This document shows positions 2,183 through 45,027 of a DNA stretch of 64,000 nt, one piece after another. The notes beneath the pieces are model-generated. The model was not told the DNA's origin. It made no database searches and was given only the letters and a program-made list of their open reading frames with translations. The position numbers were made by a program, and so were the translations under genes. The DNA is taken from assembly GCF_019669905.1 (NCBI RefSeq), contig NZ_AP019777.1:2232001-2296000 (forward strand), given 5' to 3'. Each line of letters starts with the position of its first letter. Position 1 is the stretch's first letter. The stretch is from Methylomonas koyamae (GTDB taxonomy: Bacteria; Pseudomonadota; Gammaproteobacteria; Methylococcales; Methylomonadaceae).

Positions 2183-5100
2183 ATGGCTAAATCCGCGGCA
2201 TTTCCACGGCAGACATCCTGCGAACCGTTCCGACTGAATCCTTTGGTGGCCTGCGTCCGCTTGGCGCTGACCGGCGGTATGCTGGTCGGCGGCGCCAATC
2301 CGGCTTGGGCCGAATTGCCGATTCCGGCGGCGACCTGGGTCACCAGCGGCGCAGCGACCAGCCAAGTGATCGGCAATACCCTGCGGATCGACCAGACCAC
2401 CGACAAAGCGATTCTGAACTGGGACCAGTTCAACGTCGGCCGGGAAAACACCGTGCAATTCGTGCAGCCGAACAGCCAATCGATCGCGCTGAACCGGATC
2501 AACCAACACGATCCCAGTCGAATTTTCGGCCAGATCGTCGCCAACGGCCAAGTCTACCTATACAACAAAAACGGGTTCGTGTTCGGCAAGGATGCGGTGA
2601 TTAATACCAACACCGTGGTCGCGACCACGTTGAACATCAGCGACGAAATATTCAACCGCGGCATTACCCGGGTATTCGACGAAAACAACAGTGCGGCATT
2701 GGCGATAGAGCCGATGGCGCCGGGCGATACCTTGGACCCGAAGACCGCGAAAATTCTGATTGAGGCCGGCGCCAAAATTTCCACCGATAACAACGGCCGC
2801 ATCATCATCGTCGCGCCCGAAATCGAGAACCGCGGCACGCTGAGCGGCGGCAAGCAGGGCCAAATCATCCTGGCCGCCAGCCAGGACAAAGTCTATTTGC
2901 AAACGGCGAACAAAGACGATCCGTTCGCCGGTCTGATCGTGGAAGTGGATACCGGCGGCAAGGTCACCAACGCCACGTCCGGTAACATCAGCGTGCGCCA
3001 GGGCAACGTGACGATGGCCGGCTTCGTCGTCAATCAGCAAGGCCGGGTCAGCGCCACTACCTCGGTCAACGTCAACGGTTCGATCCGCTTGCAAGCTGCC
3101 GAAAAGAGCGGTGTGCTCGGTGCGCGTCTGGTGGCGACCCGTACCGACCGCGCGGCCGATGCCGGCGACGGACTGGGTACCAAGGCGAGCGTGACCTTCG
3201 GCGCCAACAGCAACACCGAGATTGTGGCCGACGCCGAGGGCGGCAGCGCCGCCGATGGCCAAGTGCAGCCCGATTCCTATCTGGCGGCGACGGCCAATAC
3301 TATCGTGGTCGAGGGCGGCGCCAGCGTCAAAGTCCCCGGCGGTAAAGTCAACTTGACCGCGACCGACAATCTGGCCAAACCCAATTTGGGTACCAAGGGC
3401 AGCATCCGCATCGACAGCAACGCGGTCATCGACGTTTCCGGTTATAAAAACGTCGCGGTGGCGATGGAACGCAACGTCGGCGAGGTGTCGGTACAAAGCT
3501 TCGATTTACGGGATGCGCCGTTGCAGAAGTCCGGGGTATTGAAAGGCAAAACGGTTTACGTCGATTTGCGCGGCGACACCCAAATCGTCGATACCGCCGG
3601 CGCCAAGGACCGTATCAGCCGCAGTATTCAAGAACGGCTGGCCGAGGGCGGTACGATTACGCTGACCTCCGGTGGCGACATTGCCGTCAACCAAAACGCG
3701 AAGTTCGACATATCCGGCGGCTCGGTCAGTTATGCCGGCGGTTACGTCAATACCACCAAGTTAATGAACGAGTACGGCCAGATCGTCGATATCGGCGACG
3801 CCGATCCGAACGACCATTACATAGCGGTATTAGGCGTGGTCAACCAGACCCACAAAAAATGGGGCGTTGAAAAGATCTATAACTTGTTGGGAGCCGGCTC
3901 CTTCGCCCAGTTCGAACGCGGTTACAGCGAAGGCAAAAGCGCCGGCAGTCTGAACCTGCAGACGGCGCAACTGGCCTGGAACGGCGATTTGGCGGCTGGC
4001 TCCCAAGCCGGTATCTATCAGCGCGATTTGGCGAAACTGCCCGGCGCCGGCGAATTCAATATCGATTTGGCGCTGTTTTTGTCGGCGCAGGATGTTAAGT
4101 TGCAAACGGCGCCCGGCGCGGTTCGGATCGCGGCGGATCAAGACTTCCCGCTGCAAGGCAACGGCCGGCCGGCGGATTTGCTGATTTCCACCGCCAAACT
4201 GGAACAATCCGGCGTCGGCAAGTTTTCGTTAAAAACGCTGGGTAGTGCCACGGTCGGCGCGGACGTTGCCATTGCGATGCGGCCCACCGGCAGCCTGAAT
4301 CTGGAAGCCGGCAGCGTTAACTTCGCCGGCGATTTCAAAGCGGCCGGCGGTAGCATTACTCTGGCGGCGTCCAACAACGCCAAGTTGCCCGGTTCCGGCG
4401 GATTGTTGTTGGCTGAGACAGCCGATTTGGACGTATCGGGATTATGGGTCAACGACCTGCAAAAAGGCTTCGATGCGGCTCCGACCGATGCGTTGGCGCT
4501 GGCCGGCGGTAAGGCCACACTCAGATCGCAAGGCGAGTTGACGGTCGCCGCCGGTTCCCGGATTCGGGCTGATGGCGGCGCCTGGTTGGCGCTGAACGGC
4601 GAGCTTAAGGCCGGCAAGGGCGGCGATATCACGTTGGCAGCCACGGCCAGCGGCTTGAGCTACCCGGTATTGAACGTGGCCGGCGACGTGTCCGCCTACG
4701 GCCTGGAACAGAACGGCAGTCTGACGTTGGAGAGCGGCAAGATCGTGGTCGGTACCCCGGCAGCCGGCGAGGCCGATCAAGCCTTTGTGGTCGGTGATGG
4801 CGGCTTCGACGCCTCGCGTTTCGCCGCATTCAATGCGGTCAATCTGGTCGCCAATACGGCCGCCGTCACCGTCAAATCCTCCACCGATCTGAATCTGCGC
4901 GCCAAAAATCTGGAATTGAATGCCGACTACCAAAACCGCGCTACCGGTGCCGAAATGCGCGGTTTCAGCCGCATCGTCGATTTGCCGGAACACATGCGCC
5001 AACCGATGGCGGTCAAGTTGCAAGGTTTTACCGAAGTGGCTTTGGAAACCGGCAGTGCGATCCGCGCCGATAAAGGTTCCAGCATCAGTCTGGTCAGCTC

Positions 5101-8100
5101 CGCCGGCAGCATTTACGTCGACGGCACCGTGCAAAGCGACGGCGGCAAAATCAACTTGACCGCGACCTCGGTCAACGATCAGGAATACGACGACAAGCAG
5201 GTGATCTGGTTGGGTGCGCACGCCAAATTGCTGGCGCAAGGTACCACCCGTTTGAACCCGGCCGACGTGTTCGGCCGACGCACCGGCGTGGTGTTGGACG
5301 GCGGCGAAGTCGTGTTCGATGCGTTGCGTGGGGCGGTGGTGTTGGAGAACGGCTCTTTAATCGACGTTTCCGGTACCAGCGCCGAACTGGATATCCAGCA
5401 AAAAGGCAATCCGTTGGCGAATAACTTCGCCCGGCAGCGCATTGCGTCGAATGCCGGCAAGGTTAAGGTCACCGCCGCCGAGGGCGCGGTGCTGGAAGCC
5501 GATTTCCGCGCTAACGCCGGTTCGCCGTTAGCCCACGCCGGTAAGTTGGAACTGGCGCTGGACCGTTTTCGCCGCAACCCGCCGTCTCTGCCGGAAATCC
5601 CGTTCCCCAGCAATCCGCTGGTGATTAATGTCAGCCAATCTTCCCGGCGCTCTTCGAACCAGGAGCCGGTTTACGGCGAACCCTTACCGCTGGAGCTGAA
5701 CGGGCAAATGTCGCTCAGTGTCGACCGCTTCGCCGCCGGCGGCTTCAGCGATTTGAGCCTGACCGCGGACCAGGTTGTATTCCACGGCCGTGTCGAACTG
5801 CAAGCCGGCGAGCGCATCAAAATCGACGCGGCCAAGGTCAACGCAGTCGGCATCGACGGCCAGGCCGCCGACGTCGAGTTGAATACCGTATTCCTGCAAA
5901 TCGGTTCGTCGTTGAACCGGACAGTGGCCGACACGGCCGACATCGGCAGCGGCCGTTTTAGCGGCAATGCGCAATGGATACAACTCAACGGCGCCACCCA
6001 ATGGAATGGCTTCGAACGCATTGCGCTGAACAGCCAACACGATTTACGTGCGGTCGGCATCCGCGAATCCGGCGACCAGCGCGATTTTATCGGCGGTTTG
6101 GTGACCGCCGCCGATTTGTATTTGCAGGCTAGCCAGATTTATCCGACCACCTTGAGCAATTTCACGTTCGCGGTGAAAAACAACGCCGACGGCAAAATCG
6201 TTATCACCGGCAACAATACCGACACCGATAACACGCCGCTGTCCGCAGCCGGCCAGTTGATCTTCGATGCGCCGACGATTCGCCAGGCCGGCGCGATCAA
6301 AGCGCCGATGGGCACGATAACCCTGAAAGCCGGCCGCGAATTGACGCTGGAGCAAAACAGTCTGACTTCGGTCTCGGCCCGCAACATGAAATTCGACGCT
6401 ACAAGCCAAACCTGGGTGGCCGGCGCGGATATGACGATTCCGTTCGGCGTGACCCAGGGCGGCCTGGATTGGCTGTATCCGCTGGACGACGCCGGCCGCA
6501 AGCTGGTATTCGATACTGCACCGGAAAAACGGCTGGTGTTGTCGGCGCCCGATATCGATATCAAAACCGGCAGTACGGTGGACGTAGCCGGCGGCGGCGA
6601 TTTGCTGTCCTACGAGTTCCAACCCGGAGCCGGCGGTTCCTACGATTATCTGCAAGCGGGCAGCCCGTCTTATCAGGGCGGCTTTGCGGTATTGCCCAGC
6701 CTGGGTTCCGACTTGGCACCGTTCGACCATTACGAAAGCCAGTATTTGCCTTACGCCTTCGGCAGCAAGATTTATCTGGAAGGCGGCTCCGGCTTGGCGG
6801 CCGGCGAATATGTGATTTTGCCGGCACGTTATGCGCTGTTGCCCGGCGCTTATTTGGTGACGCCGCAAGCCGGTACCCTGGACTTGCCCGCCAACCAAGC
6901 CACGATAGACGGTCGGGCTATCGTACCGGGCTATGGGGTGCAGGCCGGTACCGGCATCCGCGACGCGCGCAGCAACGGTTATTTGATCGAGACCGGCGCC
7001 GACGTGCGCATGCGCTCCAGTTACGACATTCACACCGCCAACGATTTCTATCGGCAACGGGCAATCAAGAACGAACAAGCGGTGCCGCTGCTGCCGAAAG
7101 ACGCCGGCCAGATTTCGTTGGTGGCGCAAAACCAATTGGTCATGGACGGCAAGTTTTTGGTCGAAGCGGCCAACGGCGGACGGGGAGCGAAGATGGATAT
7201 CGCCGCCAACCGGATCAGCGTGGTCGAGCAACTCAGCCTGGCGCCGGCAGCCGGCGTGCTGGAAATATTGGACAGCGACCTCAGCGCGTTGCAGGTCGAT
7301 AGCTTGTTGCTGGGCGGCGCGCGCAGCCGTAACCAAAGCAAAGCCGGCGAAACCGATATCCAGGTCACCGCCAGCGAGGTGGTGTTCGGCGAGAACGTGG
7401 ATTTGAGCGGTCCGGAAATCATGGCTACCGCGACCGGTTTGATCGACGTGCGCGCCGGCGCGGTGCTGGAGGCGGATAGAGCTGCCAACAGCGGCGACAG
7501 CGTGTTGAACATCGCCGGCGACGGCGCGATTCTGCGCGTGTCCGGCGATAAGCAAGTAGTCTTCAATCGCAGCGAGACTTCGGCCGATGCGGTCAGCGGC
7601 GAACTGCGGGTTGCGGCCGGCGCTACCCTGAAATCGGCCAAATCTATGCTGTTGGGCGCGACCCGCTCCACTCAGTTGCTAGGCGAACTGGAAATGGACG
7701 GAGGTTCGTTGAACCTGACCGCCAATACCATTAACCTCGGCGAAGTCGAGGCATTGGCCGGCGCCAACGCTCTGAACTGGTCGAACCGCAAATTGTCTGC
7801 TCTGGCCGTCGACGAGTTGGTATTGACCGCGCGCGACAGCGTCGGCATCTACGGCAATCTGCATATGGTCAACGCCGACGGCTCGGCTGCGCTCGATGAG
7901 AACGGCGCCACCCGTGCGATCCATTTCGGCAGTTTGACCTTGAACGCGGCCGGCATTGCCGGATATGGCGCTAGCGGCGACCGCGCCCAATTGTCTGCCG
8001 ATAGCCTGACGCTGCAAAACAGCGCCGGCGCGCAAAGTTTGCGCAGCGGCAGCGGCAGCGGCGGCTTGGCCTTAACCGCCGATAGCCTGAAAGTTGGCGA

Positions 8101-11100
8101 CGGCAGCTTCACAATCGACGGTTTTACCGTGGTCGGCGTCGAGGCGGCTAAAGAATTTCGAGCGGCCGGCCAAGGTACGCTGAAAGTCGCTGCCGACCTG
8201 AATCTGGCCGCCGGCGTCGTGACTGCCGACGGCGGCAGCCGGATTACGCTGGATGCGGCCGGACACGACGCCGTTTTCACCGCCCTGGATAGCGACGCTG
8301 CCGTTGCCGACGGCTTGGGCGGGGCGATTCGTGCCGTTGCCGATAGCATCGACTTTAACGCCAAAGCGGTACTGGCTTCCGGCGCGCTGGAATTGCACGC
8401 CTTGACCGGCGACGTAACCATAGGCAGCGAGGCCGATATCGATCTGGCCGGCCGTAGCGTGCGTTTCGCCGACCAAAACCAATACACCGCCGGCGGCAGT
8501 TTTAAAGCCGTGGCCGACAATCGGCGGGTTGTGGTGCAACAGGGTGCCGCGATCGATGCCGACAGCGGCGGCGGTAACGCCCAAGGCGGCGATATCGTGT
8601 TAAGGGCGCCGAACCAGGCGTTGCTGTTGCAAGGTCAAATCCACGCCAACGGCGGCAGCGCCACGATTGAAGTAGACCGCTTCGATGCCAACGCCGATTT
8701 CGGCCAGTTAATGGCCATCGTCAATAATGCCGGGATCGACCGGTCCATCTACTTCCGCGTGCACAACGCCAATATCGATCAACAGGCCGGCAACGTTATC
8801 GCCGCCCGCAAGGTCACGTTGGCCAGCGATAACGGCAGCGTGAGCCTGGCCGGGACCATCGATGCCGATGCGGCCGGCAATGGCGGCGAGATCAACATTT
8901 ACGCCGGCCACGGCATCGCGCTGAAAAGCGGCGCCGAGTTGTCGGCGGTAGGTATCGGCGACGGCGCCAAGGGCGGTAAGGTATTGCTGTCTTCGACCGA
9001 TGCCGATAGCGACGGGATCGCTATTGCGTCCGGCGCGAACATCGACGTATCCGGCAACGGTGCGGCCGGCGGCGAGGTTACACTGCGGGCCAGACGCACA
9101 GCGGACGGTATCGATATCCAGCAGGTCGGCGGCACGGTAACCGGCTATACCAAGTTTTACGCCGAAGGCGTCCAGGTGTATGGCAATTCGGCGCTGGGCG
9201 ACGACGGCGAAATCAATGCCGCCGACATCGAACAGATCAAACAGGATACCGCGGCCTATATGACGGCACAGACCATGCAAAACGTCGCCGCGCTGGCGCC
9301 GGGCTTGCAGTTGCTGGCCGGCGTCGAGATCGATTACGACGGCAATCTGGCCTTGCAAGACCGCTGGGATTTGGCCGATTGGCGCTACGGTAACCTGGCA
9401 GACGGCAACGTCTGGAACGACACGCCGGGCCGCTTGGTGATTAAAACCAGCGGCGATTTCAACGTGAACCAGTCGCTGAGCGACGGCTTCAAAACCGAGC
9501 TGTTCCGCTATCCGGCCGCGACGGGTACCGGCACTAACACCGCGCGTATCGTCGATAAATTGCAGGGCGGCGAATCTTGGTCCTACAACATCGTGGCCGG
9601 TGCGGCCGGCGGCAGCGCCGATTTCAACGCCGTTGCCGGCAGCGGTGGTTTGAATATCGCCGAAAACACCGTGATTCGCACCGGTAGCGGCGACATGTGG
9701 ATCGGTGCCGCCGGCGACATCAGTTTTGCTGCCGGTTCCGCTTCGGTCTACAACGCCGGCCGGCCGACAGAAACCACGCCGTTCGGCAACTTCAAAGACC
9801 GTTTCATCGGTACCGCGTTTTATACCGAGTATCCGGTAGACGGCGGCGACCTGACCTTGGCGGCCGGCGGTAATATCAACGGTGCGGTAACCGACAACAA
9901 CTTCAACAACTGGCTGCTGCGGATCGGCAACTGGACCGCGGACGGCAGCCATGCTCAGGAACGGCCCACGGCCTGGGGCGTGGCGCTGGGCTACATTACG
10001 ACGGGCGGCGGCAATAACGTCGCCAAGGGCAACGCCCCGTTCTTCCAGCAAAACGTCGGCTCGTTCGGCGGCGGCAACGTCAACGTCGTCGCCGGCGGTT
10101 CGATCAGCAATCTGGACGTGATGATGCCGACCACCGGTAAGCAGGTCGGAACGCCGAACAATACCGACAACACCAATCCGAACCGGTTTTATACCAACGA
10201 AGTACAAGTCAGCGGCGGCGGCACGATGCAGGTCAATGCCGGCGCCGATATCGTCGGCGGTAACTACTATCTGGGCAAAGGCAGCGGCGCTATCGCCGCC
10301 GGCGGCAAGATCGCTGCGGCCGACGCCTCCGCCAAAGGTCCTAAGCTGTTGGTCGGCGATACCCGGATCGATGTCAGTGCCCGCGCCGGTGTGGATTTGT
10401 CCGGCGTCTCCGATCCGATGATGCTGCACAGCGGCGATGTCAACTTTTTCAGTTACAGCGCGAATAGCGGCGTCAACGTCGAATCGCTGGCCGGCGACGT
10501 GGTGTTGCATGCCGACGGCAACGTATTCGGCCCGCCGGATTCCATCGTCAGCAGTGCCCAGGCCGAACTGGCCCGGATTTATCCGGCGACCTTGAATGCC
10601 GTGGCGGTAACCGGCAGCGTGCGTATCGCCGACAAGATCGTATTGTTCCCGGCACCTGCCGCTCAGCTCGGCATTTTGGCCGGCGCAAACATCACCGCGG
10701 AGCAGGGCACGCAATTGTTCATGTCCGATTTCGACGTTAGCCTGCTGCCGACCGCGGCGTTGCCGGTGAAAAAAGACGAGGACGTGATGGCCACCATCGG
10801 CGCCAATATCGCCGAATCGCACGCGACCGAGCCGGTGCATGCCGCGGATATCTCGCCGGTACGTTTGGTCACGCGCACCGGCAATATCGAAAACATCATT
10901 TTCACGCTGCCGAAGCACGTGTTACTGAGTTCCGGTAAGGACTTGTTGGACGTTTCGGTCGCTGCTCAACACGTTGCAGCCGATACCGTATCGTTGATCG
11001 AAGCGGCGCGCGATATCCGTTACAGTTCGCTGCGCAGTCCGAATACCGGCATTCTCACCCCGAACGAGAACAAAATCGAAGTGGCCGGCGGCGGCGACGT

Positions 11101-12518: not shown

Positions 12519-12671
12519 GAGTTGACTGGCCGGTAGGCATTCAACGCCGTAACGGCGGAACAAGGGGAGTCCGGGCCGCAGTCGGTTCGGCCGGTAAATT
12601 TCACGAAAGTGTCATAAAAATGTAAAGAAAAGTCGGGATAATTCGCTAAGTACCTTGTTTTGAGAGAGAAA

Positions 12672-14459
12672 ATGAAGCGGATTGCCTTGTTAATGTTGGT
12701 CCTGTCGATGATGCCCGGATTGGCGCAAGCCTGGTGGAACGACGACTGGGGCTATCGGAAGAAAATCACGATAGACGCGGCGCAGTTGCAGCAAAGCGGC
12801 GTCAAACCGGTAGCCGAGGGTTTGGTGCCGGTGCGGCTGCATACCGGCAATTTCGGTTTTTTCGCCGATCTGGCCGAGAACGGTAAAGACCTGCGGTTTT
12901 TGGCGGCCGACGACAAGACGCCGCTGAAATATTTCATCGAGAAAATCGATACCGTCAACGAGATGGCCCTGATCTGGGTCAAACTGCCCAAAGATATTGC
13001 CTCGGCCGACGAGGCCATGTTCTGGATGTATTACGGTAATCCTAAGGCGGTCGACGCCCAGGACGGCGCCGGCATTTTCGACGTGGCCCAAGCCGTGGCT
13101 TACCACTTCGAGGCCGATGCGGCCAAAGATGCGACGGCATACGCCAATCAGCCGGCCAGCGCCACATCGACCCGGATCGAAGGCGGTGCCGTCGGCGATG
13201 CCGGCGCGTTCAACGGCAGCCAGGCGGTGAAGATCGCGGCGACGCCGGCCGTGCAAATGGCGGTGGAGTTCGGCTGGACCGTGTCGGCCTGGGTCAAAAT
13301 CGACCAAGCGCAAAGCGACGGCGTGATTTTTCAGCGCGACGGCCTGACCTTATCTGTTAGAGGCCAGACGCCGGTGTTGGAAGTTAATCGCAAGGAATTG
13401 GTCAGCCCGACCGATTTGAATCTGGCGACTTGGCAATTCCTGGCCGTTAGCGCCACCAAGGAAGGTTTCACTTTATACGTCGACGGCAAACCGATGGGTG
13501 TGTTGCCGGCCAGCGTCTCGGCGCTGCTGGGCGACAGCAGCATTGGTGCGGCAGTGGACGGTTCCCGCGGCTTCGCCGGCGCCATCGACGAGTTCGGCAT
13601 CGCCAAAGTGGCGCGCGACCAAAATTATTTGCAATTCGCCGCGCTGATGCAGGGCCAGTCTTCCGCATTGTTGAACTATGGCGAAGACAGCACGCCGGAT
13701 AGCGAAGAGGGCGGCGAATCCTATCTGATGGCGACGCTGGACAACGTCACGCTGGACGGTTGGGTCATCATCGGCATTCTGGCGGTGATGTTCATCATTA
13801 GCTTTCTGGTGATCGTCAGCAAGGCGATCATTCTGAACCGCACCCGCAGCGAAAACAAAAAGTTCGAGGAAGCCTTCAGCCAGCTCGGTTCCAAAAACCT
13901 TACCAACCTCGACCATCAGGATGAAGACGATCAAGCGGATTTCGACGAATCGCCATTGCTACTGTCGTTGACCGGTAACCATGCGGCCTTTGCCGGTTCA
14001 TCCATCTACCGTATCTACCATACCGGCGTTCAGGAAATGAACAAACGCTTGGCAAAAGGCGTCGGCGCCGATGTCCACGACCAAGCCTTGTCGGCCCAAG
14101 CCTTGAATGCGGTGAAAGCGTCGATGGACGGCGTGCTGGTACGCGAGCTACAAAAACTCAATTCGCAGATGGTGTTGTTGACCATCGCCATTTCCGGCGG
14201 CCCGTTCCTGGGTCTGCTGGGTACCGTGGTCGGGGTCATGATCACCTTCGCCGCGATAGCCGCCAGCGGCGAAGTCAACGTCAACGCCATCGCACCGGGT
14301 ATTGCCGCAGCCTTGGCTGCTACCGTCGCCGGTCTCGGCGTGGCGATTCCTGCGCTGTTTGCCTACAACTACCTGGGTAGCATGATCAAGGCAATCACCG
14401 CCGATATGCACGTCTTCGTCGACGAATTCATCGCCAAACTCGCCGAACAACATAGCTGA
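12672..14459 (+). CDS. DUF2341-LamG-ExbB fusion: proton-channel subunit with large periplasmic N-terminus (595 aa)
   Basis: Inner-membrane proton-channel protein of the MotA/TolQ/ExbB family. It carries a long exported N-terminal part. I chose the ATG at 12672 because GAGAGAG lies 5 nt upstream and the product then begins with a clean signal peptide (cut after LAQA); a TTG at 12660 is possible. DUF2341 spans about 22-110 (WWNDDWGYRK start). A LamG/concanavalin-like domain spans about 150-315. TM1 is at about 362-385, then a cytoplasmic stretch, then the MotA_ExbB core with TM2 at about 508-530 (GPFLGLLGTVVGVMITF) and TM3 at about 545-570. ExbD and TonB genes follow, so it should be the motor of a dedicated Ton system. 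The role of the lectin-like part, perhaps sensing or binding glycan, is inference. Confidence 0.92.
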   Translation: MKRIALLMLVLSMMPGLAQAWWNDDWGYRKKITIDAAQLQQSGVKPVAEGLVPVRLHTGNFGFFADLAENGKDLRFLAADDKTPLKYFIEKIDTVNEMALIWVKLPKDIASADEAMFWMYYGNPKAVDAQDGAGIFDVAQAVAYHFEADAAKDATAYANQPASATSTRIEGGAVGDAGAFNGSQAVKIAATPAVQMAVEFGWTVSAWVKIDQAQSDGVIFQRDGLTLSVRGQTPVLEVNRKELVSPTDLNLATWQFLAVSATKEGFTLYVDGKPMGVLPASVSALLGDSSIGAAVDGSRGFAGAIDEFGIAKVARDQNYLQFAALMQGQSSALLNYGEDSTPDSEEGGESYLMATLDNVTLDGWVIIGILAVMFIISFLVIVSKAIILNRTRSENKKFEEAFSQLGSKNLTNLDHQDEDDQADFDESPLLLSLTGNHAAFAGSSIYRIYHTGVQEMNKRLAKGVGADVHDQALSAQALNAVKASMDGVLVRELQKLNSQMVLLTIAISGGPFLGLLGTVVGVMITFAAIAASGEVNVNAIAPGIAAALAATVAGLGVAIPALFAYNYLGSMIKAITADMHVFVDEFIAKLAEQHS

Positions 14460-14545: not shown

Positions 14546-14950
14546 ATGAAAGTTCAAGAAGAAAACGCCGCCTACGACGAAATCAACGTCACGCCTATGC
14601 TGGACCTGGCTTACGTGTTATTGGTGGTGTTCATCCTAATGACCACCGCCGCAGTGCAGGGCGTGCAGGTCAATTTGCCCAAGGCCAGCAACACGCCGAG
14701 TTTGTCCAAGCCGCAGACCAAGGCCATCACCGTCACTGCCGACGGCACCATTTTTCTGGATACGTTTCCGGTAACGATGGAACAACTCGAATCGACCCTG
14801 CTGCAATACAAGGCGGCGAATCCGGAATTGCCGGTGGTGGTCAAGGGCGATGCCACCGTGCAATACCAAAGCGTGGTCGACATTCTGGCCTTGCTGGGCC
14901 GATTGGAAATCACCCAGGTCGGTCTGGTGACGCAAAACCTCGTGAAATAA
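14546..14950 (+). CDS. exbD: ExbD-type biopolymer transport protein (134 aa)
   Basis: Partner of ExbB in the inner-membrane Ton motor. It has a short cytoplasmic N-terminus, one TM helix at about 16-36 (MLDLAYVLLVVFILMTT) and a periplasmic domain ending LVTQNLVK. The essential membrane aspartate is present (PMLDLAY). I placed the start at the ATG at 14546, since upstream codons in the same frame run through the hairpin repeat and have no family match. It lies 86 bp after the ExbB fusion and 9 bp before tonB, so it is one operon. A close paralogue is at 38176-38580. Confidence 0.93.
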   Translation: MKVQEENAAYDEINVTPMLDLAYVLLVVFILMTTAAVQGVQVNLPKASNTPSLSKPQTKAITVTADGTIFLDTFPVTMEQLESTLLQYKAANPELPVVVKGDATVQYQSVVDILALLGRLEITQVGLVTQNLVK

Positions 14951-23409: not shown

Positions 23410-23416
23410 GCGTTTG

Positions 23417-36303: not shown

Positions 36304-38160
36304 ATGTTTAAAAAGTCTTTACTGTTCGGTTTTGCCGGTCTGTGTTTTCCATTGCTCGCCCAAGCCTGGTGGAATGCCGACTGGAGTTCGCGGCGGCAGG
36401 TGGCGGTGGATGCCTCGGCGACCGGGGCGGACGTGCAGGAGACCTTGGCTGACGTGCCGGTGTTGGTGCGGCTGCACGCCGGCAACTTCGGCTACTTTGC
36501 CGAACTGGCCGACAACGGCCGCGACTTTCGGGCAATGAAAGACGAGCAGACCCCGCTGGCCTACCAGGTCGAGCAAGTCGATGCGCTGAGCGAGATCGGT
36601 TTGCTCTGGGTCAAGCTGCCACAAGTGCGCGGCGGGGTGGCTACCGACGACTTCTGGCTCTACTACGGCAACGCCAACGCCGCCGACGGTTCCGATCCGA
36701 AGAGTTTGTACGACGTGGCCCAAGGCCTGGTCTACCACTTCAATGCGTCCGAGACGTTGCCGCAAGACGCCACCGCTTACGCTTCCCATGCCAGCGACTC
36801 CAAAGCCAGCATTCAAGCCGCCGGCTGGATCGGTGCCGCCGCCCAATTCAGCGGCGCCGGACCGATTACCGTCAACCCGGCGCCGCAACTGGCGCTGGAT
36901 CCCAGCAAAGGCTGGACCTTCGCCACCTGGCTGAAGATCGACCAGGCCAACCCGGCCGCCACCCTGCTCAGCGCCCAAGCCCCCGGCCTGGACCTGCGCC
37001 TGACCCTGCAAGGCAACGCCCTGACCGCCGTCGCCGGCAGCGCCAGCACCCCGGCCGCATCTCTGACCCTGGGCAAATGGCAACATGTGGCCCTGGTATT
37101 GCGCCCGGAAAACTTGGCCGCCTACACCGGCGCCAAAGCCGCCGAAAACCCCAACAGCTACGCCCCGCCGCAAATCGTCGAACTCTACCTGGACGGCGTC
37201 CCGGTCGGCAGCGTTAAAACCCAAGTCGCCGCCGGCCAACCCGCCATCCGCCTGGGCGACAACTACCAAGGCTGGCTCGACGAAGTCCAAATCGCCGCCA
37301 CCGCCCGCAGCGCCGACTGGCTCAAATTCGCCTACCGCAGCCAAAGCCCGGATTTTGCCGTACTCAGCTTCGGCCAGGACGAGTCCAACGGCAGCGGCGA
37401 CGCCGGCCACTTCATGGTCATTGTGCAAAACGTCACCGTCGACGGCTGGGTCGTCATCGGTCTGACCCTGATCATGCTGATCGTGGCCGTCATCGTCATG
37501 GTCAGCAAAACCTTAGTCATCAACCGCATCGGCAAAGACAACCGCGCCTTCCTGGCGCAATACCGCCAGCTCGACCCGAACACGCTCGGCGCGCTGGATC
37601 AGGCCGAAACCGCCGAAGAACACGAACTGGCCGACTCCGATTGGCTGACCGCCCTGGTCGGCAAACACGACCACTTCCAAAGTTCGGTGCTCTACCACCT
37701 GTACCACACCGCGATCCAGGAACTGAACAAACTGCAAGGCGGTGCCGACCAAGTGGTGACCCGCGAAGCCTGGGATTACCTGCGGGTCAAACTGGATAGC
37801 CAGATCGTCCACGAAGGCCAACGCCTGAACAAACACATGGTACTGCTGACCATCGCCATCGCCGGCGGCCCGTTCCTGGGCCTGCTCGGCACCGTAGTCG
37901 GCGTCATGATTACCTTTGCCGCCATCGCCGCCAGCGGCGACGTCAACATCAACTCCATCGCCCCCGGCATCGCCGCCGCCTTACTGGCCACCGTCGCCGG
38001 CCTGGCCGTCGCCATCCCGGCGCTGTTTGCCTACAACTACCTGCTAACCCAGATCAAAGACATCAGCGCCGGCATGCGCGTGTTCAGCGACGAATTTCTG
38101 GCCTTGTTATCGATGCGCGCCGCCCGCCAGGCCGCCGCCCATCAAACCAACGCCCGCTAA
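36304..38160 (+). CDS. DUF2341-LamG-ExbB fusion 2 (618 aa)
   Basis: Paralogue of the protein at 12672-14459 with the same order of parts. It has a signal peptide (cut after LLAQA), DUF2341 at about 22-110 (WWNADWSSRRQV) and a LamG-like domain at about 150-345. TM1 is at about 380-402 (GWVVIGLTLIMLIVAVIVMV). The MotA_ExbB core has TM2 at about 519-541 and TM3 at about 555-580 (IAAALLATVAGLAVAIPALF). It would drive ExbD2/TonB2. The sigma-54 promoter ties it to the PEP-CTERM regulon, which the first copy lacks. From about 36900 the codon choice becomes strongly C-ending (GCC, CTG, ACC), unlike tpsA2 just upstream. The ribosome site is weak. Confidence 0.92.
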   Translation: MFKKSLLFGFAGLCFPLLAQAWWNADWSSRRQVAVDASATGADVQETLADVPVLVRLHAGNFGYFAELADNGRDFRAMKDEQTPLAYQVEQVDALSEIGLLWVKLPQVRGGVATDDFWLYYGNANAADGSDPKSLYDVAQGLVYHFNASETLPQDATAYASHASDSKASIQAAGWIGAAAQFSGAGPITVNPAPQLALDPSKGWTFATWLKIDQANPAATLLSAQAPGLDLRLTLQGNALTAVAGSASTPAASLTLGKWQHVALVLRPENLAAYTGAKAAENPNSYAPPQIVELYLDGVPVGSVKTQVAAGQPAIRLGDNYQGWLDEVQIAATARSADWLKFAYRSQSPDFAVLSFGQDESNGSGDAGHFMVIVQNVTVDGWVVIGLTLIMLIVAVIVMVSKTLVINRIGKDNRAFLAQYRQLDPNTLGALDQAETAEEHELADSDWLTALVGKHDHFQSSVLYHLYHTAIQELNKLQGGADQVVTREAWDYLRVKLDSQIVHEGQRLNKHMVLLTIAIAGGPFLGLLGTVVGVMITFAAIAASGDVNINSIAPGIAAALLATVAGLAVAIPALFAYNYLLTQIKDISAGMRVFSDEFLALLSMRAARQAAAHQTNAR

Positions 38161-38175: not shown

Positions 38176-38580
38176 ATGAAAGTCGAAGAAGAAGGCAAAG
38201 TCTACGACGACATCAACATCACGCCGATGCTGGACGTGGCCTACGTGCTGTTGCTGATTTTCATCATCATGACCACCGCCACCGTGCAGGGCATTACCGT
38301 CAACCTGCCCAAGGCCAGCAGCACGCCCAGCCTGTCCAAACCCAAGACCAAGGCGATCTCGATCACGCCGGACGGCAGCGTTTACCTGGATACCTATCCG
38401 GTGTCCTTGCAAGAACTGGAAACCCGCTTGGCGCAATACAAGGCGGCGACGCCGGACCTGCCGGTGGTGGTCAAGGCCGACGCCAGCGTGCAGTACCAGA
38501 AGGTGATCGAGGTCTTGGACATTGTGACTCGGTTGCAGATTAGTCAGTTGGGGTTGGTGACGCAGAAGTTGGTGAAGTAA
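38176..38580 (+). CDS. exbD: ExbD-type biopolymer transport protein 2 (134 aa)
   Basis: Same length as the first copy and very similar, with the membrane aspartate in PMLDVAYVLLLIF and the end LVTQKLVK. A GGAG site lies 8 nt before the ATG and the gene is 15 bp after exbB2. It is the stator partner of the Ton motor. The 502-bp gap to tonB2 is filled with repeats, whereas copy 1 has a 9-bp gap there. Confidence 0.93.
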   Translation: MKVEEEGKVYDDINITPMLDVAYVLLLIFIIMTTATVQGITVNLPKASSTPSLSKPKTKAISITPDGSVYLDTYPVSLQELETRLAQYKAATPDLPVVVKADASVQYQKVIEVLDIVTRLQISQLGLVTQKLVK

Positions 38581-38585
38581 AGGAT

Positions 38586-39082: not shown

Positions 39083-39757
39083 ATGACAAACAAATACGCC
39101 TGGCTGCGGCGCTTGCCGGTGGTGTTGGGGATAGGGTTGAGCCTGTTGATTGCGCTGGGCGTGTGGTGGTTGGCGGACAAGTTCGAGAAGCCGCCGCAGA
39201 CCAAAAAGCAAGTGCAGCAGATCACGATGATCCAGCCGCCGCCTCCGCCACCCCCACCGCCGGAGCAAGCGCCGCCTCCGCCGGAAGAGATCAAAGAAGA
39301 AAAGATCGAGCAGCCCGAGCCGGAACCCGAGCCCGAACCTTCGCCGGAGCCGGACGAAGCGCCGCCGGCCGAAGACCTGGGCGTGGATGCCGACGGCACC
39401 GCCGGCAGCGACGGCTTTGGCCTGCAAGCCCGCAAGGGCGGCCGCTCGATCCTGGGCGGTGGCGGCGGCAACGCCATCCTCTGGTACGGCGGCCAGATCC
39501 AGCGCCAGGTCGAGACCGGCCTGCAAAACCTGCTGACCGACACCCCGGCCGCGCAAGCCGGCTACAGCGTGATCCTGGAAATCTGGGTCGGCCCGGACGG
39601 CCGCATCAGCCGCAGTGAATTGGCCGGCGGCAGCGGTAAGGCCGACATCGACCAAGCCCTGCGTGCGGCCTTGCCGCGGCTGCGGGCCAGCGTCGGCCGG
39701 CCGCCGCCGGAGAGCATGCCGCAGCCGATTCGGATACGGTTGAGTTCGAGGGTTTAA
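39083..39757 (+). CDS. TonB-type energy transducer 2 (224 aa)
   Basis: The anchor helix is at about 13-30 (VVLGIGLSLLIALGVWWL). A proline run and Glu-Pro repeats span about 50-95. The conserved linker DLGVDADGTAGSDGFGL leads to ARKGG, and a TonB/TolA-like C-terminal domain ends SSRV. It differs from copy 1 mostly in the arm length and the C-terminal surface, so the two may contact different outer-membrane partners. Repeats R1 and R2 lie on either side of the gene. No receptor gene is near. Confidence 0.88.
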   Translation: MTNKYAWLRRLPVVLGIGLSLLIALGVWWLADKFEKPPQTKKQVQQITMIQPPPPPPPPPEQAPPPPEEIKEEKIEQPEPEPEPEPSPEPDEAPPAEDLGVDADGTAGSDGFGLQARKGGRSILGGGGGNAILWYGGQIQRQVETGLQNLLTDTPAAQAGYSVILEIWVGPDGRISRSELAGGSGKADIDQALRAALPRLRASVGRPPPESMPQPIRIRLSSRV

Positions 39758-39793
39758 GCAATAGTGCTTCAGCTCTTGGTAGGGCATGGCGTT

Positions 39794-40547: not shown

Positions 40548-42455
40548 ATGAATACCGTAAGCAAATCCCTGGCCCTGGTTTTGACCGGCAGCCTGACCGC
40601 CAGCGCCGGCGCGGCGCAAGCCGCCACTCCGGCCCCGGCCGACGCCGTGATTCCGGTCAAGAAATCCACCCTGGTCAACCTGGTCGACCTGCTGGTGCAG
40701 CGCGGCGTGATTAACCAAGATGAAGGCCAAGGCCTGGTGCAGGCCGCCGAACAGGAAGCGGTCGCCGCGCAGGCCAAAGCCGAATCGGCCAATGCCGCGC
40801 GCGCTGCTAATCCGGCCGGCAATAGCGGAACCTCGGCTACGGCCACCCCGGACGCCGCCCAAACCGCGGCCGACTGGGCCGGCGAGCCGGCCAATGTTGC
40901 GGGTAAAACCGGCAAAACCAAACACGTCGCTTACGTGCCCGAGTTCGTCAAAAAAGAAATCCGCGACCAGGTCCGCGCCGAACTGAAGGCCGAGGTGTTG
41001 CAGGACGTGAAGCGCGACGCCAAAGACGAAGGCTGGGGCATTCCCGGCGCGTTGCCGGAGTGGGTGGCGGCGATCCATCCCAGCTTCGATATCCGTATCC
41101 GTTTCGCCGACGAGTTCTACGGTAAAGAAAACGCCGGCGGGGTCGAGAACGTCGGCCTCGATGCGGCCGGCAACTTCGTCGGCCCCTACAACTGGCTGGC
41201 CATCAACCGTGCCGCCACCGGCAACCAGGCCGGCTTGACCACCCAGGTCTCGCTGAACCCGAACGAGGCCATCATTAACAACCAAAAAGACCGGCTGCGG
41301 CTACGCGAACGCTTCCGTCTCGGCTTCGAAGCCAACCTGGCCGACGGTTTGAAAGCCGGGGTGCGCTTTGCCACCAGCAACATCAACAACCCCGTCTCGA
41401 ACGACCAGACCCTGGGCAACACCGGCCAGTCCTACCAGTTCGCCATCGACCGCGCCTATCTGCAATACGATTTCCTGGACGAACGTAAGACCAACTGGTT
41501 TAGCTTGTATGCCGGCCGCATCATCAATCCGTTCCTGTCCACCGACGTGGTGTTCGACCCGGATTTGAGTTTCGAAGGCGTGGCCGGCAGCTTCCGCTTG
41601 CCGTTCAATCGCGGCAGCAACAAACTGGCCGGCTACAAAACGCCGAACCCGACCGCCCGCTTCGGCATCAACCAGGGCCAGCAGACCCCGGACAGCCTGT
41701 TCGTCACGCTGGGCGTATTCCCGTTGCAGGACATCGACGTCTCGGTCAACGACAAATGGTTGTATGCCGGCCAGGTCGGCGCCGACTGGCTGGTGTGGCA
41801 GGACTCGCGGTTGAATCTGGCCGCGTCGTATTACGAATTCCACAACGTCCAGGCCCGGCGCAATCCGGTCGGCAGCCATGCCTACGACTGGACCGCACCG
41901 CAGTTCGTGCAGAAGGGCAACTCGATGGTGGCGATCAGCGACGCCAACACCTTGCTGCCCAACTGCACCGACACGGTGGGCTGCTTGTTCGGCCTGGCCT
42001 CCGAATTCAAGGTGTTCAATGCCACGGCCATGTTCGATTACGCCGGCTTCGGCGACACCCACGTGCTGTTCACCGCCGATTATGCCCAAAACCTGGGCTT
42101 CAACCGGCAGAAAATCCTCAGCCAGTTCGGCACCGCCTTCGCCAGCACCGACCTGCAACCGCGCACCAAGGCCTACCAGGTGCGGGTCGACGTCGGCGTG
42201 CCGGAACTGCGGCGCTGGGCCGACTGGAACGTCAACCTGGCTTATCGCTACGTGCAGCGCGACGCGGTGCTGGACGCCTTCACCGACTCGATCTTCCACC
42301 AGGGCGGTACCGATGCCAAGGGCTGGGTGATGGGCCTGCAATACGGCCTGGCCAAAAGCACCTGGCTCAACCTGCGCTGGTTCAGCACCGACGCCATCGA
42401 CGGTCCCCGCTACAGCATCGACACCGTCAACGTCGATTTGAATGCGCGGTTCTAG
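40548..42455 (+). CDS. Putative porin 2 with N-terminal helical segment (635 aa)
   Basis: Outer-membrane barrel paralogous to 15644-17338 and about 70 residues longer. The signal peptide ends near AGAAQA. An N-terminal helical part (LVNLVDLLVQRGVINQDEGQ; KKEIRDQVRAELKAEV) precedes the barrel. The barrel shares RLRERFRLGFEANLADGLKA and AIDRAYLQYDF with copy 1 and ends in phenylalanine (LNARF). Most of the extra length is Ala/Thr/Pro-rich linker and two loops. It lies after the repeat-filled spacer and 11 bp before the coiled-coil gene. Confidence 0.86.
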   Translation: MNTVSKSLALVLTGSLTASAGAAQAATPAPADAVIPVKKSTLVNLVDLLVQRGVINQDEGQGLVQAAEQEAVAAQAKAESANAARAANPAGNSGTSATATPDAAQTAADWAGEPANVAGKTGKTKHVAYVPEFVKKEIRDQVRAELKAEVLQDVKRDAKDEGWGIPGALPEWVAAIHPSFDIRIRFADEFYGKENAGGVENVGLDAAGNFVGPYNWLAINRAATGNQAGLTTQVSLNPNEAIINNQKDRLRLRERFRLGFEANLADGLKAGVRFATSNINNPVSNDQTLGNTGQSYQFAIDRAYLQYDFLDERKTNWFSLYAGRIINPFLSTDVVFDPDLSFEGVAGSFRLPFNRGSNKLAGYKTPNPTARFGINQGQQTPDSLFVTLGVFPLQDIDVSVNDKWLYAGQVGADWLVWQDSRLNLAASYYEFHNVQARRNPVGSHAYDWTAPQFVQKGNSMVAISDANTLLPNCTDTVGCLFGLASEFKVFNATAMFDYAGFGDTHVLFTADYAQNLGFNRQKILSQFGTAFASTDLQPRTKAYQVRVDVGVPELRRWADWNVNLAYRYVQRDAVLDAFTDSIFHQGGTDAKGWVMGLQYGLAKSTWLNLRWFSTDAIDGPRYSIDTVNVDLNARF

Positions 42456-42466
42456 GAGGGCAGGCG

Positions 42467-43345
42467 ATGGCTAAGCAACAACCCTGGCGCTGGATTTATG
42501 TCCCGCCGTTATGCCTGCTACTGCTGTTGGCCGGCATTGAAACCAGTGACGCCGAACCCAAAGCCGCCGTCCCCGGCGGCGACGCGATCAAAAAGGCCCA
42601 AGGCCTGATCCGCCAGCTCAGCCAGGAAAAGCAAGCGCTGGAAGCCGAGAAAGCGGCCTGGCTCAACGAAAAGGCCGGTCTGGAAGCCAAGCTGAAAAGC
42701 CTGGAAGCCGCCGTGGCGCAACTGGCGCCGCTGCAAGGCGAAGTCGCGCGCTATAAAAACGGCTTGGAAGCGGTCAAAACCAGCCTGGAAAGCCAGCTCA
42801 GCCAGCAGCGCCAGCGCGAACAGGCCCTGGTGCAAAAACACAACGATGTGGTGGCCAAAGCCCGCGCCATTCGCGACGACAACCAATTGTTGGTGCAGGC
42901 GGTGCAGGAACGGGAGCAGTGGATCGGCCAATGCGGCCAACTGAACCAACAGTTGCGCGAGCTGAACCAAAAAGTGGTCGAGCAATACGAACAGAAAGGC
43001 CTGTGGCAGCAACTGGCGGAACTGGAACCGCTCACCGGCATCGCCAAGGTCGACAGCCAAAACCGGGCCGAGGCATACCGTTATCAGCTCAAGCAGTTGA
43101 AAGTGACGCCGTTCGAGGCCGGTGCGGCGTTAGCGGCCGGCCAGGCCGCGGCCGAGCCGGCGCAGGAAGCGTCAGAGCCCATCGACACCGCCACCCGCGC
43201 CGAGCCTGGCGCCGATAGCGCCGGCGGGCAGCCGGCAGAAGCGGCCAGCGCAACCGCAGCGTCCTCAGCCGCAGTGCCGCTGGGTGACAGCGAATCCGCA
43301 GTGGCATCGCCACAAACGCCTGTCAATCGGGGGGCTGGGCAATGA
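42467..43345 (+). CDS. Secreted coiled-coil protein 2 with one conserved cysteine (292 aa)
   Basis: The ATG at 42467 follows AGGAGGG and overlaps nothing; upstream codons in frame lie inside the porin. The signal peptide ends near TSDAEP, and a coiled coil at about 40-150 precedes the conserved QCGQLN (the only Cys of the mature chain) and VVEQYEQKGLWQQL. An Ala/Glu/Pro-rich tail of about 75 residues, absent in the first copy, ends the protein. The stop overlaps the start of tpsB2 (ATGA), so translation is coupled. This suggests the coiled-coil protein works with the TPS pore. The family is unnamed to my knowledge. Confidence 0.82.
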   Translation: MAKQQPWRWIYVPPLCLLLLLAGIETSDAEPKAAVPGGDAIKKAQGLIRQLSQEKQALEAEKAAWLNEKAGLEAKLKSLEAAVAQLAPLQGEVARYKNGLEAVKTSLESQLSQQRQREQALVQKHNDVVAKARAIRDDNQLLVQAVQEREQWIGQCGQLNQQLRELNQKVVEQYEQKGLWQQLAELEPLTGIAKVDSQNRAEAYRYQLKQLKVTPFEAGAALAAGQAAAEPAQEASEPIDTATRAEPGADSAGGQPAEAASATAASSAAVPLGDSESAVASPQTPVNRGAGQ

Positions 43346-45027
43346 AACGCTGCCAACCGTTAACGCCGGCCTGGCTGGCCGCCTGCTGTCTGCTCGCTAG
43401 CGCAGCCGATGCCGCGCCGCCGCCGGCGCCAACGCCGCCCGGCGAGGCCGCCCGCGGCGACAGCGCGGCCGCAGCCGGTACCGGAAAGGACGCCGCCGAC
43501 ACCGCCACGCAATGGGCCGGCGAAGCGCAGCCGCGCTTCGACGTGCTGGACTTTCAGATCGACGGCAACAGCCTGCTCGACGACGAAACTCTGGAACAGG
43601 CGGTGTATCCCTATCTGGGGCCGGAGAAAACCGTGGCCGATGTGGAACAGGCCCGGGCCGCGCTGGAGCAGGCCTACCGCGCCGCCGGTTACCCGACCGT
43701 GGTGGTGTCGATCCCGGAACAGGACGTCAACGAGGCCAGCGTCAGGCTGCAAGTGGTGGAGGGCAGTATCGAGACCTTGCACATCAGCGGTTCGCGCTAT
43801 TTCGACTTGGGCAAGATCCGCGCCGGGGTGCCAGCCCTGGCCGAGGGCCGGGCGCCGCATATGCCGCAGGTGCAGGAACAGATCAACGCGCTGGCCAAGC
43901 AATCCGGCGACCGCTCGATCACGCCGGTGTTCCGCGCCGGCTCGACCCCGGGCAAGATGGAAGTGGAACTGAAGGTCAAGGACGAACTGCCGCTGCACGG
44001 CAGTCTGGAGCTGAACAGCCGCAACTCGGAACATACCAGCTACACCCGGCTGCAAGGCAGCTTGCGCTACGACAACCTGTGGCAGAAGTTCCACAGTGCT
44101 TCGGTGCAATACCAGGTCTCGCCGCAAAACGCCGAAGAAGTCGAAGTCTGGTCCGGCACCTACGTGCTGCCGACCGGCTGGGCCGACACCCGGCTGGCGC
44201 TGTACGGCATCGGCATCAGCTCCAGCACCCAGCTCGGCGTCAACGTCGGCGGCCTGTCGGTGGTCGGCGCCGGTTCCATCTACGGCGCCCGCCTGGTGAA
44301 ACCGCTGGACGGCGCCAGCGACGGCGTGCTGCACAGCCTCAACTTCGGCGTGGATTACAAGAGCTTCGACCAGCAGATCGCCCAGTTCGCCGGCAGCGGC
44401 AGCCCGATCAGCTACGCCGCCTTCGTCGCCGGTTACGACGGCGTCCGCCGCGGCGACGGTTATGCCAGCAGCCTGAACCTGAGCGGCCACTTCAGCTTCC
44501 GCGGCCTGGGCAACGACGCCGAGCAGTTCGAAAGCAAACGCGCCGGCGCCACGCCCAATTTCCTCTACCTGACCGCCGAGCTGAAACACCAACAGCAACT
44601 GCCGGGAGACTTTCGGCTGCAAGCCCGCGCCGGCGGCCAGGCCAGCATGGCGAAACTGATCAGCAACGAACAGTTCTCGGCCGGCGGCCCGCTCAGCGTC
44701 AGGGGCTACCACCAGACCCAGGTGCTGGGCGACCACGGCGTCAACCTGTCGCTGGAGCTGTACAGCCCGCACCTGCTGCCGAATGAGATCGACACCGCGC
44801 AAAACCTGCGCCTGCTCGGCTTCATCGACTGGGCCCACCTGTGGACCGATGCGCCGATTGCACCGACCCCGGCCAGCGAAACCCTGGCCGCGGCCGGCAT
44901 CGGCCTCAGGCTGCAACTGCTGAAACGCCTGAGCGGCGAACTGGACTGGGCCTACCCGTTCCATTCCCACGGCACCGTCGACATCGGACAACAACGCCTC
45001 GATTTTAGGATGGCTTATGAGTTTTGA
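43342..45027 (+). CDS. TpsB two-partner secretion transporter 2 (561 aa)
   Basis: Complete outer-membrane pore for a TpsA. The signal peptide is cut near ADAAPPP. A low-complexity Ala/Asp linker leads to the POTRA domains (about 65-225; FDVLDFQIDGNSLLDDE, then SIPEQDV). A 16-strand-type barrel follows, with SVRGYHQTQVLGDHG and the C-terminal phenylalanine (MAYEF). It is clearly homologous to the partial gene at the window start. Last gene of the set, coupled to the coiled-coil gene by a 4-bp overlap. It most likely exports TpsA2, although seven genes and 7.4 kb separate their facing ends; such separation is unusual for TPS pairs. Confidence 0.93.
   Translation: MKRCQPLTPAWLAACCLLASAADAAPPPAPTPPGEAARGDSAAAAGTGKDAADTATQWAGEAQPRFDVLDFQIDGNSLLDDETLEQAVYPYLGPEKTVADVEQARAALEQAYRAAGYPTVVVSIPEQDVNEASVRLQVVEGSIETLHISGSRYFDLGKIRAGVPALAEGRAPHMPQVQEQINALAKQSGDRSITPVFRAGSTPGKMEVELKVKDELPLHGSLELNSRNSEHTSYTRLQGSLRYDNLWQKFHSASVQYQVSPQNAEEVEVWSGTYVLPTGWADTRLALYGIGISSSTQLGVNVGGLSVVGAGSIYGARLVKPLDGASDGVLHSLNFGVDYKSFDQQIAQFAGSGSPISYAAFVAGYDGVRRGDGYASSLNLSGHFSFRGLGNDAEQFESKRAGATPNFLYLTAELKHQQQLPGDFRLQARAGGQASMAKLISNEQFSAGGPLSVRGYHQTQVLGDHGVNLSLELYSPHLLPNEIDTAQNLRLLGFIDWAHLWTDAPIAPTPASETLAAAGIGLRLQLLKRLSGELDWAYPFHSHGTVDIGQQRLDFRMAYEF

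Follow-up and report, generated by a model that had tools for sequence, protein, structure and literature searches.

The stretch of DNA analysed here, hereafter the window, covers 64,000 nt (G000:C1:2232001-2296000) of the 5.1-Mb genome of Methylomonas koyamae and carries two paralogous gene sets, each of which places a two-partner secretion (TPS) pair, the giant TpsA and its partner TpsB, beside genes for a Ton motor. Set 1 is arranged in the order TpsB, riboswitch, TpsA, a DUF2341-LamG-ExbB fusion, ExbD, TonB, porin, coiled-coil protein and PrsT. Set 2 opens with a PEP-CTERM-like and a PstS-like gene, continues with TpsA, fusion, ExbD, TonB, porin and coiled-coil protein, and ends with TpsB and a sigma-54 activator. 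The two sets, with their tail motifs, the riboswitch and the adjoining genes up to the sigma-54 activator, lie on the plus strand. In set 1, the TpsB gene is cut by the window at its 5' end (2..1402; ShlB PF03865 and POTRA_2) and is complete, encoding 553 aa, outside it (L004 9741-11402); there follow TpsA (2183..12280; 3365 aa), the fusion (12660..14459, with a likely ATG at 12672), ExbD (14546..14950; PF02472), TonB (14960..15622; PF13103 TonB_2 and TIGR01352), a Porin_5 porin with N-terminal helices (15644..17338; PF16930, 638.5 bits) and a Cys-containing coiled-coil protein (17352..18011), the profile of which is conserved in relatives. The corresponding members of set 2 are TpsA (25584..35957; approximately 3457 aa from the probable ATG at 25584, the open reading frame (ORF) running from 25386), the fusion (36304..38160), ExbD (38176..38580; PF02472), TonB (39083..39757; PF13103), the Porin_5 porin (40548..42455; PF16930, 566 bits), the Cys-containing coiled-coil protein (42467..43345; profile match) and TpsB (43342..45027; ShlB, POTRA_2 and Omp85).

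Pfam matches were obtained for every named part of both sets except the two coiled-coil genes, which match no Pfam family. Both TpsAs carry the TPS domain (PF05860) and DUF3739 (PF12545), and both fusions combine DUF2341, Laminin_G_3 and MotA_ExbB. The pairing of a TpsA bearing the TPS domain with a TpsB composed of POTRA domains and a ShlB-type barrel is that of type Vb secretion, while an ExbB transmembrane domain, an ExbD with the conserved transmembrane aspartate and a TonB C-domain (all by Pfam) make up a Ton system. The segment TPMLDLAYVLL is conserved across 79 aligned ExbDs and GPFLGLLGTV...ATVAGL across 81 aligned fusions; we take these conserved residues to match those of the E. coli ExbD and ExbB proteins. 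The original prediction of two paralogous sets built from TpsA, fusion, ExbD, TonB, porin, coiled-coil protein and TpsB is thus borne out, all parts having been located, and so is the shared middle order, with ExbD, TonB_2 and Porin_5 following the fusion in both sets. Its 'eight-part' label needs correction, as the list contains seven parts, and the TpsB of set 1, which it had placed within 2183..45027, actually lies outside that interval. The absence of a TonB-dependent receptor was also read correctly: 37 plug-domain matches were found genome-wide and none between 2232001 and 2296000.

The two sets have diverged to differing degrees. In best local alignments they share 36% identity for TpsA, 41% for the fusion, 66% for ExbD, 40% for TonB, 41% for the porin and 48% for TpsB; the two coiled-coil proteins could not be aligned by BLASTP. 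Among named organisms, Methylomonas koyamae SM2 has the closest counterpart of the set-1 fusion (97% identity). A third TPS-Ton set resides elsewhere on the same contig (G000:C1, approximately 4682115-4705717; L005 10116-18969 and L006 472-13718), with its TpsA divergently oriented. Its stretch between TonB and TpsB matches set 2 at 99.97% identity across 6133 bp, and the third set is therefore either a recent copy or the product of gene conversion. The genome contains three TPS, three DUF3739, three DUF2341 and three Porin_5 matches in total, all within the three sets. A repeat of approximately 260 bp (83% identity) lies on both sides of the set 2 tonB gene (38585-38844 and 39793-40051) and recurs in set 3 (L005 15092-15350 and 16374-16629).

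The association between the TPS and Ton genes extends well beyond this genome. Of 104 confirmed relatives of the set-1 fusion, the best were followed to 80 loci. These come from Methylococcales, other gamma-, beta- and alphaproteobacteria and Verrucomicrobia; their ORFs were scored with profiles made from the window proteins. Counting only loci with enough sequence past the fusion (72, 64, 60 and 54 of the 80, respectively), ExbD follows in 72/72, TonB in 64/64, Porin_5 in 60/60 and the coiled-coil protein in 54/54; of the 67 loci that have 3 kb or more of upstream sequence, 60 contain a match to TPS or DUF3739. TpsB is undercounted by its profile, which found 11 when built from one sequence and 24 when built from five. 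Plasmids yielded 17 matching records, and in the 11 that cover at least 80% of the query ExbD is present in 11, TonB in 10, the porin in 10, the coiled-coil protein in 11 and TpsA in 10. In 249 genomes drawn independently from the phylum, the TPS domain occurs in 98, DUF3739 in 10, DUF2341 in nine and Porin_5 in 10 with a strong and three with a weak match. All nine DUF2341 genomes and all 10 strong Porin_5 genomes are among the 10 with DUF3739; the hypergeometric probability of the DUF2341 overlap is 1.1e-15 when the genomes, though related, are treated as independent. In the tenth DUF3739 genome (G230), ExbB-ExbD-TonB-porin are found on a short contig, the start of which falls within ExbB, and in some draft genomes (G127 and G219) TpsA and motor are found on separate contigs. 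Within this draw, the DUF3739 branch of TPS proteins alone has the fusion. The survey of 80 neighbourhoods and 249 genomes therefore establishes as real the linkage proposed between TPS genes and DUF2341-ExbB fusions: TPS genes and dedicated Ton genes are one conserved unit, far beyond chance, and co-occurrence by chance only is thereby excluded.

A second constant feature is located at the C-terminus of TpsA. In nearly all fetched loci, the DUF3739 TpsA ends in a low-complexity linker followed by a short strand-like motif, typically LSVEVLGFGE, often as the last residues of the protein. In TpsA1 the motif reads MLSVELLGFGD and ends the protein (12245..12277), in a tail that is disordered in the model, and in TpsA2 it reads LSTDIVGYGQ (35880..35909) with a Cys pair behind it. 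Within the C-terminal 90 residues, a strict pattern for the motif is matched in 63 of 71 DUF3739 TpsAs and in none of the 920 other ORFs of at least 300 aa in the same loci, and a loose pattern in 69/71 and 30/920; since the pattern was derived from these same sequences, the comparison is descriptive. One of the 71 is a truncated frame (L033) and another a misassigned ORF (L094|3|986); a short match (L071) was left out. Among a further 120 homologues, mostly close and mostly from Methylococcales, the motif is found in 113, the seven misses being one-residue variants (GIG, GWG, GHG or GMG). A second set of 120 sequences, mostly from P. aeruginosa and comprising six distinct tails, has it in 120/120. 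The phylum draw retains the full G-[FY]-G in six of 11 tails and V-x-[VI]-L-[GS] in 10 of 11, as read by eye. All 53 TpsAs of an alignment keep the two glycines of the motif, although the linker varies in length from 42 to 62 residues; the alignments used with the structure models (A3 and A4; 56 and 53 sequences) leave out near-duplicates and all plasmid rows. Ala, Ser, Thr, Gln, Glu, Lys, Asp, Asn, Gly and Pro account for 81% of the linker compared with 66% of the body in the 120 homologues. An AlphaFold model of the C-terminal region of TpsA shows an ordered domain that is rich in strands and into which a helical part is inserted (mean predicted local distance difference test score (pLDDT) 82.8, predicted template modelling score (pTM) 0.81), but residues 375-430, including the motif, fall below a pLDDT of 50. 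A fold search with this model returned no match at an E value of 0.001 or better, and the fold is therefore left unnamed. A conserved short strand ending a floppy linker, as modelled here, looks like a docking peptide. The motif is new here.

Behind the motif, some TpsAs carry a pair of cysteines. Among 66 TpsAs of at least 900 aa, the last 45 aa contain exactly two Cys in 18 and one Cys in none, while the body is devoid of Cys in 53; the rate in the tail is 56-fold that in the body, in lineages that are not independent. Sets 2 and 3 have the pair and set 1 does not. A tail signature of the set 2 type, approximately G-[FY]-G-x-C-[ST]-x(3)-[IV]-x(2)-G-K-x-G-C, occurs at 35880-35954 of the window and in L006, L058, L060, L067 and L087. 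Type V passengers are said to be poor in Cys, and the adhesin HMW1 is described as retained by the cell through a disulfide loop at its periplasmic C-terminus, with HxuA expected to behave likewise; CdrA has a periplasmic C-terminal tail that is cleaved by LapG under cyclic di-GMP (c-di-GMP) control (PMC5422565). The tails of sets 2 and 3, though not that of set 1, carry a Cys pair comparable with the disulfide loop of HMW1 and HxuA, and the C-terminus of TpsA is probably kept in the periplasm.

A predicted c-di-GMP-I-GGC riboswitch aptamer (RF03167; 2066..2143; Rfam 65.9 bits against a gathering score of 59, E 2.4e-13) ends 39 bp upstream of the TpsA1 start codon, and a c-di-GMP-I aptamer (L004 6751-6832; 54.6 bits) precedes the p311-like gene that opens set 1, in a p311-like/PstS-like/TpsB block. 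No riboswitch reaches the gathering score before set 2 in the window or before set 3 in L006. In 61 genomes of the family, the GGC aptamer is found 184-225 bp before the TPS domain in at least eight of 32 giant TpsAs, all eight of which have a second aptamer 4.4-5.5 kb upstream; this survey of one Rfam family, covering 32 listed TPS places with a frame of at least 3300 aa and 44 listed riboswitch rows, gives a lower bound. The riboswitch predicted before TpsA1 is new here. Control by PhoB was considered for the window sets and set aside, as the one Pho-box-like site (1513-1530) has three mismatches and 2.05 such sites are expected by chance. A second, VQVLGAG-like tail motif is found in seven of eight TpsAs from loci with a VreI match and in one of 61 elsewhere (Fisher 6e-8, with lineages not independent; L033 and L094|3|986 left out); this association, too, is new here. 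Vre loci were called by VreI and VreR alone, since the VreA profile also matches TonB C-domains. All six distinct tails of the set dominated by P. aeruginosa contain VQVLGAG or VQVVGAG. The link to Vre genes is weakened by G094 and G248, in which a degenerate second motif lies beside VreI/VreR, and by G146, which has a VreR match and no second motif.

It is important to point out that this type of locus, although proposed as a candidate undescribed system, has a known relative. In Pseudomonas aeruginosa, pdtA, pdtB, exbB2, exbD2, tonB4, the putative porin gene PA0696 and PA0697 are followed by YbjN and peptidyl-prolyl isomerase (PPIase) genes, mostly form one transcription unit and are controlled by PhoB and sigma-VreI (PMC7035377, PMC4971064); the Ton part of the locus was called uncharacterized in 2020. 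Llamas et al. had already described in 2009 the clustering of TPS, ExbBD and PA0696 homologues in several species (PMC2729926). This PUMA3 or pdt locus (vreAIR, pdtA PA0690, pdtB PA0692, exbB2, exbD2, tonB4, PA0696, PA0697, YbjN PA0698 and PPIase PA0699) has the core gene set in common with the window sets and, as it is described, the identical order ExbB-ExbD-TonB-porin-small secreted protein. DUF3739 TpsAs of P. aeruginosa share the tail motif, and a P. aeruginosa protein that combines DUF2341, LamG and MotA_ExbB, presumably the exbB2 product, is 37% identical to the set-1 fusion. The window sets differ from PUMA3 in that neither YbjN nor PPIase is matched next to them, in having only one tail motif, and in the riboswitch before TpsA1 and the PEP-CTERM-like and PstS-like neighbours. 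VreI and VreR have no match in the window, L004, L005 or L006, whereas both match L086, L090 and L092-L097; the window system is therefore a relative of PUMA3 and not the PUMA3 system itself. It represents a variant, linked to c-di-GMP and lacking Vre genes, of a locus type that is known but still lacks a functional explanation. A 2025 study of proteins related to MotAB mentions DUF2341 as an additional, unknown domain in A subunits of this kind (PMC12505986), and a search of open-licence papers found none on DUF3739 and no study of the function of the Ton motor of DUF3739 TPS systems.

Plasmid loci of Klebsiella, Cupriavidus, Methylosinus, Burkholderia, Variovorax, Aquabacterium and Methylomagnum have the same core as the window but differ from it by a VreI match in seven and two tail motifs in six of the 11 records. 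The Klebsiella plasmid pKqq_SB98_1 is annotated with the P. aeruginosa-type gene order, and the Klebsiella plasmids L092 and L088 carry a PUMA3-type core, the TpsB match of L088 being split over two reading frames. The plasmid loci L089 and L091 adjoin type II secretion genes. On the Methylomagnum plasmid L087 the order is fusion-ExbD-TonB-coiled-coil protein with no adjoining porin, and alkaline phosphatase/PhoX genes and a radical-SAM cluster for a ribosomally synthesized and post-translationally modified peptide lie between the motor genes and TpsA.

Several further genes adjoin the sets. Set 1 is closed by an accessory PrsT-type tetratricopeptide repeat (TPR) lipoprotein (18223..20685; TIGR02917, 333.9 bits against a cut-off of 312.2), which is present in part of the Methylococcales loci. 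Set 2 is preceded by a PEP-CTERM-like secreted protein (22474..23409; weak PEP_CTERM_THxN match below cut-off, E 2.8e-4) and a PstS-like secreted protein (23474..25186; weak TIGR02136 match below cut-off, E 0.0049). This pair adjoins all three sets (window 22474-25186, L004 6858-9314 and L006 472-2974), and one or both of its members recur in L008, L056, L071 and L090. A sigma-54 activator directly after set 2 (45387..46508; PF00158) is a candidate regulator and is also found in loci L060 and L067. Beyond the sets, a sulfur-looking block (48762-58778 and 61787-64000) encodes a substrate-binding protein, two permeases, an ABC ATPase, a LysR regulator, a PALP enzyme and a hexapeptide protein, followed by an SrpI-like encapsulin of family 2A together with a class V aminotransferase, and by a gene resembling nitrite/sulfite reductases.

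Set beside the observed gene set and order, genome-wide co-occurrence, tail motif, Cys-pair pattern and riboswitch sequence matches, the best model, which we put forward tentatively, is that of a two-partner adhesin anchored by its tail and served by a Ton motor of its own. TpsB would export TpsA with the N-terminus leading, and the extreme C-terminus of TpsA, consisting of the disordered linker and the strand-like motif, with the Cys pair in sets 2 and 3, would remain in the periplasm. There the TonB of the cluster would grip the tail motif by strand pairing, in the manner of a receptor Ton box, and ExbB-ExbD would apply the proton-motive force to the adhesin in order to hold it, tension it, finish its export or release it; each of these four uses of force is, taken singly, unlikely. 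The N-terminal DUF2341-LamG part of the A subunit is presumably periplasmic because of its signal peptide, the porin and the coiled-coil protein may form an outer-membrane and periplasmic frame, and the riboswitches would put synthesis of set 1 under c-di-GMP.

TonB is proposed to act on the tail on account of the invariable presence of the motor, the adjacency of the genes, the lack of a receptor in the window and the likeness of the motif to a Ton box. The motif resembles DEVVVTG, the tested Ton box of Bt1763, which lies on a flexible segment (PMC7782687). Other systems provide partial precedents. In the heme-hemopexin system HxuABC, a TPS protein works with Ton energy (PMC5422565), but the client there is the receptor HxuC, for which the window has no counterpart; in Myxococcus, the Ton complex is needed for the outward transport of PopC through Oar (PMC6434023), which is a TonB-dependent transporter and not a TPS protein. 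The original list of partners for TonB, namely the porin, TpsB or an unlinked protein, was incomplete, as the tail of TpsA has to be added as a further candidate; the porin stays one too. We regard docking of the cluster TonB on the TpsA tail as quite possible, short of probable, and action on the porin as unlikely; confidence in the tail is limited because a Ton-box matrix gave a negative result and the porin has a comparable conserved segment. This matrix, which is weak since it was made from 15 boxes chosen by eye from 30 host receptors in mixed alignment registers, puts the tail at a median of 9% of TpsA positions, with 0/120 in the top 1%.

Other observations likewise weigh against the tail as the client. 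Five of the 11 tails of the phylum draw (G127, G210, G219 and both of G146) deviate from G-[FY]-G, and two 60-residue tails have no NCBIfam match at E values up to 10. The Cys pair is absent from 48 of 66 TpsAs, including that of set 1, and from 116 of 119 close TpsA1 homologues. To our knowledge, HMW1, HxuA and CdrA have no dedicated ExbB, ExbD or TonB genes beside them and are anchored without a motor of their own. Insertion mutants of P. aeruginosa in tpsA, tpsB, tonB (PA0695) and PA0696, with VreI induced, are reported to have wild-type virulence in zebrafish (PMC2729926), a result that lends the model no functional support. Finally, residues 84-97 of the porin, within an apparently unstructured stretch, would be equally well placed as a client of TonB. 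This segment, V-R-V-x-Y-V-P-x-F-V-K, ends the unstructured N-terminal linker, V86, Y88, P90 and V93 are nearly invariant, and residues 74-90 have a pLDDT below 50 in the model. TpsA might thus capture a substrate at the surface, with the Ton motor driving its uptake through Porin_5 or gating the porin, much as in HxuABC with the porin replacing the receptor. In the 80-locus survey Porin_5 is as constant as the motor, and its strong matches fall in the same 10 genomes. The sets have PstS-like genes as neighbours, the locus of P. aeruginosa is regulated by phosphate, and OprO and OprP are among the structural matches of the porin (ranks 18 and 39). The porin model (mean pLDDT 79, pTM 0.71), a barrel of approximately 18 strands with N-terminal helices, nevertheless resembles general trimeric porins: OmpF-like porins match it as do OprO and OprP, its best match is the attachment porin OmpM1 of Veillonella (TM-score 0.74 by target length and 0.45 by query length, 14% identity), and it has no Pfam plug domain. 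Sequence and profile searches of Porin_5 against solved structures gave no match at E values up to 1, and the porin N-terminus gave chance-level matches only in NCBIfam at E values up to 10. An OmpM1-like porin would suit a load-bearing frame. Uptake through the porin also sits poorly with the Methylomagnum plasmid L087, where motor and coiled-coil protein are kept without an adjoining porin, with c-di-GMP control, which points to adhesion, and with a Pho-box-like match in the window no better than chance, and it leaves the tail motif unexplained.

The remaining explanations are less probable still. If the tail were a retention or sensing signal for another reader, such as TpsB, VreA or a protease, the motor could do a Tol-like job in the envelope that the adhesin needs nearby; this is improbable, though TolQ provides both the best-scoring models (126.6 bits, short of the cut-off of 221) and the best structures for the ExbB part, a coiled-coil and a TPR protein end set 1 in a manner that resembles the tol-pal layout, and the second tail motif tracks the VreI/VreR genes. 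A general envelope role would not be expected to confine DUF2341 to genomes with a DUF3739 TpsA, as the phylum draw does, and the tie between second motif and Vre genes is imperfect beyond the first set of loci (G146, G094 and G248). Rather more improbable is that TpsB is the client, the motor energising export by opening or cycling the TpsB pore in place of the plug helix described for FhaC (PMC5422565). TpsB adjoins the motor genes in several loci, and in L067, L082 and L091 very few residues separate the signal peptide from the POTRA domain, which leaves little room for an FhaC-type plug helix; against this, the N-terminal region of TpsB lacks a conserved peptide in 20 sequences, many fetched loci have no TpsB match beside the motor, even if the profile undercounts TpsB, and type V export is held to be free of an energy source (PMC5422565). 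The least probable explanation by a wide measure borrows from gliding motility. The motor GldLM moves the surface adhesin SprB, a parts list that is alike in combining an ExbB-family motor, a giant adhesin and a periplasmic frame, and the motor of the window sets might in the same way move its adhesin along or through the surface. Nothing points to movement: gliding or type 9 genes, at which no search was aimed, did not turn up among the annotated window proteins, and the weak GltJ match of TonB2 (21.3 bits where the cut-off is 450; E 1.2e-4) is located in the Pro/Glu-rich part of this TonB.

The preferred reading of a tail worked by TonB can be carried one step further. VreA is described as a signalling domain joined to a TonB-like domain (PMC2729926), and because of this architecture it could, by conjecture, read the second tail motif. 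DUF3739 TpsAs might then generally possess a C-terminal Ton box, be threaded through TpsB and be worked by a private ExbB-ExbD, with VreA reading a second box as the missing signal for sigma-VreI; in this full form the proposal is speculative and rather doubtful. Two-partner secretion has been described as free of an energy source, yet the DUF3739 branch, PdtA-like proteins included, is tied to a dedicated, proton-driven Ton motor. The tail motif provides a concrete candidate target for this motor and a candidate for the signal of the VreA regulator, and the c-di-GMP riboswitches predicted in methanotrophs point to an attached lifestyle.

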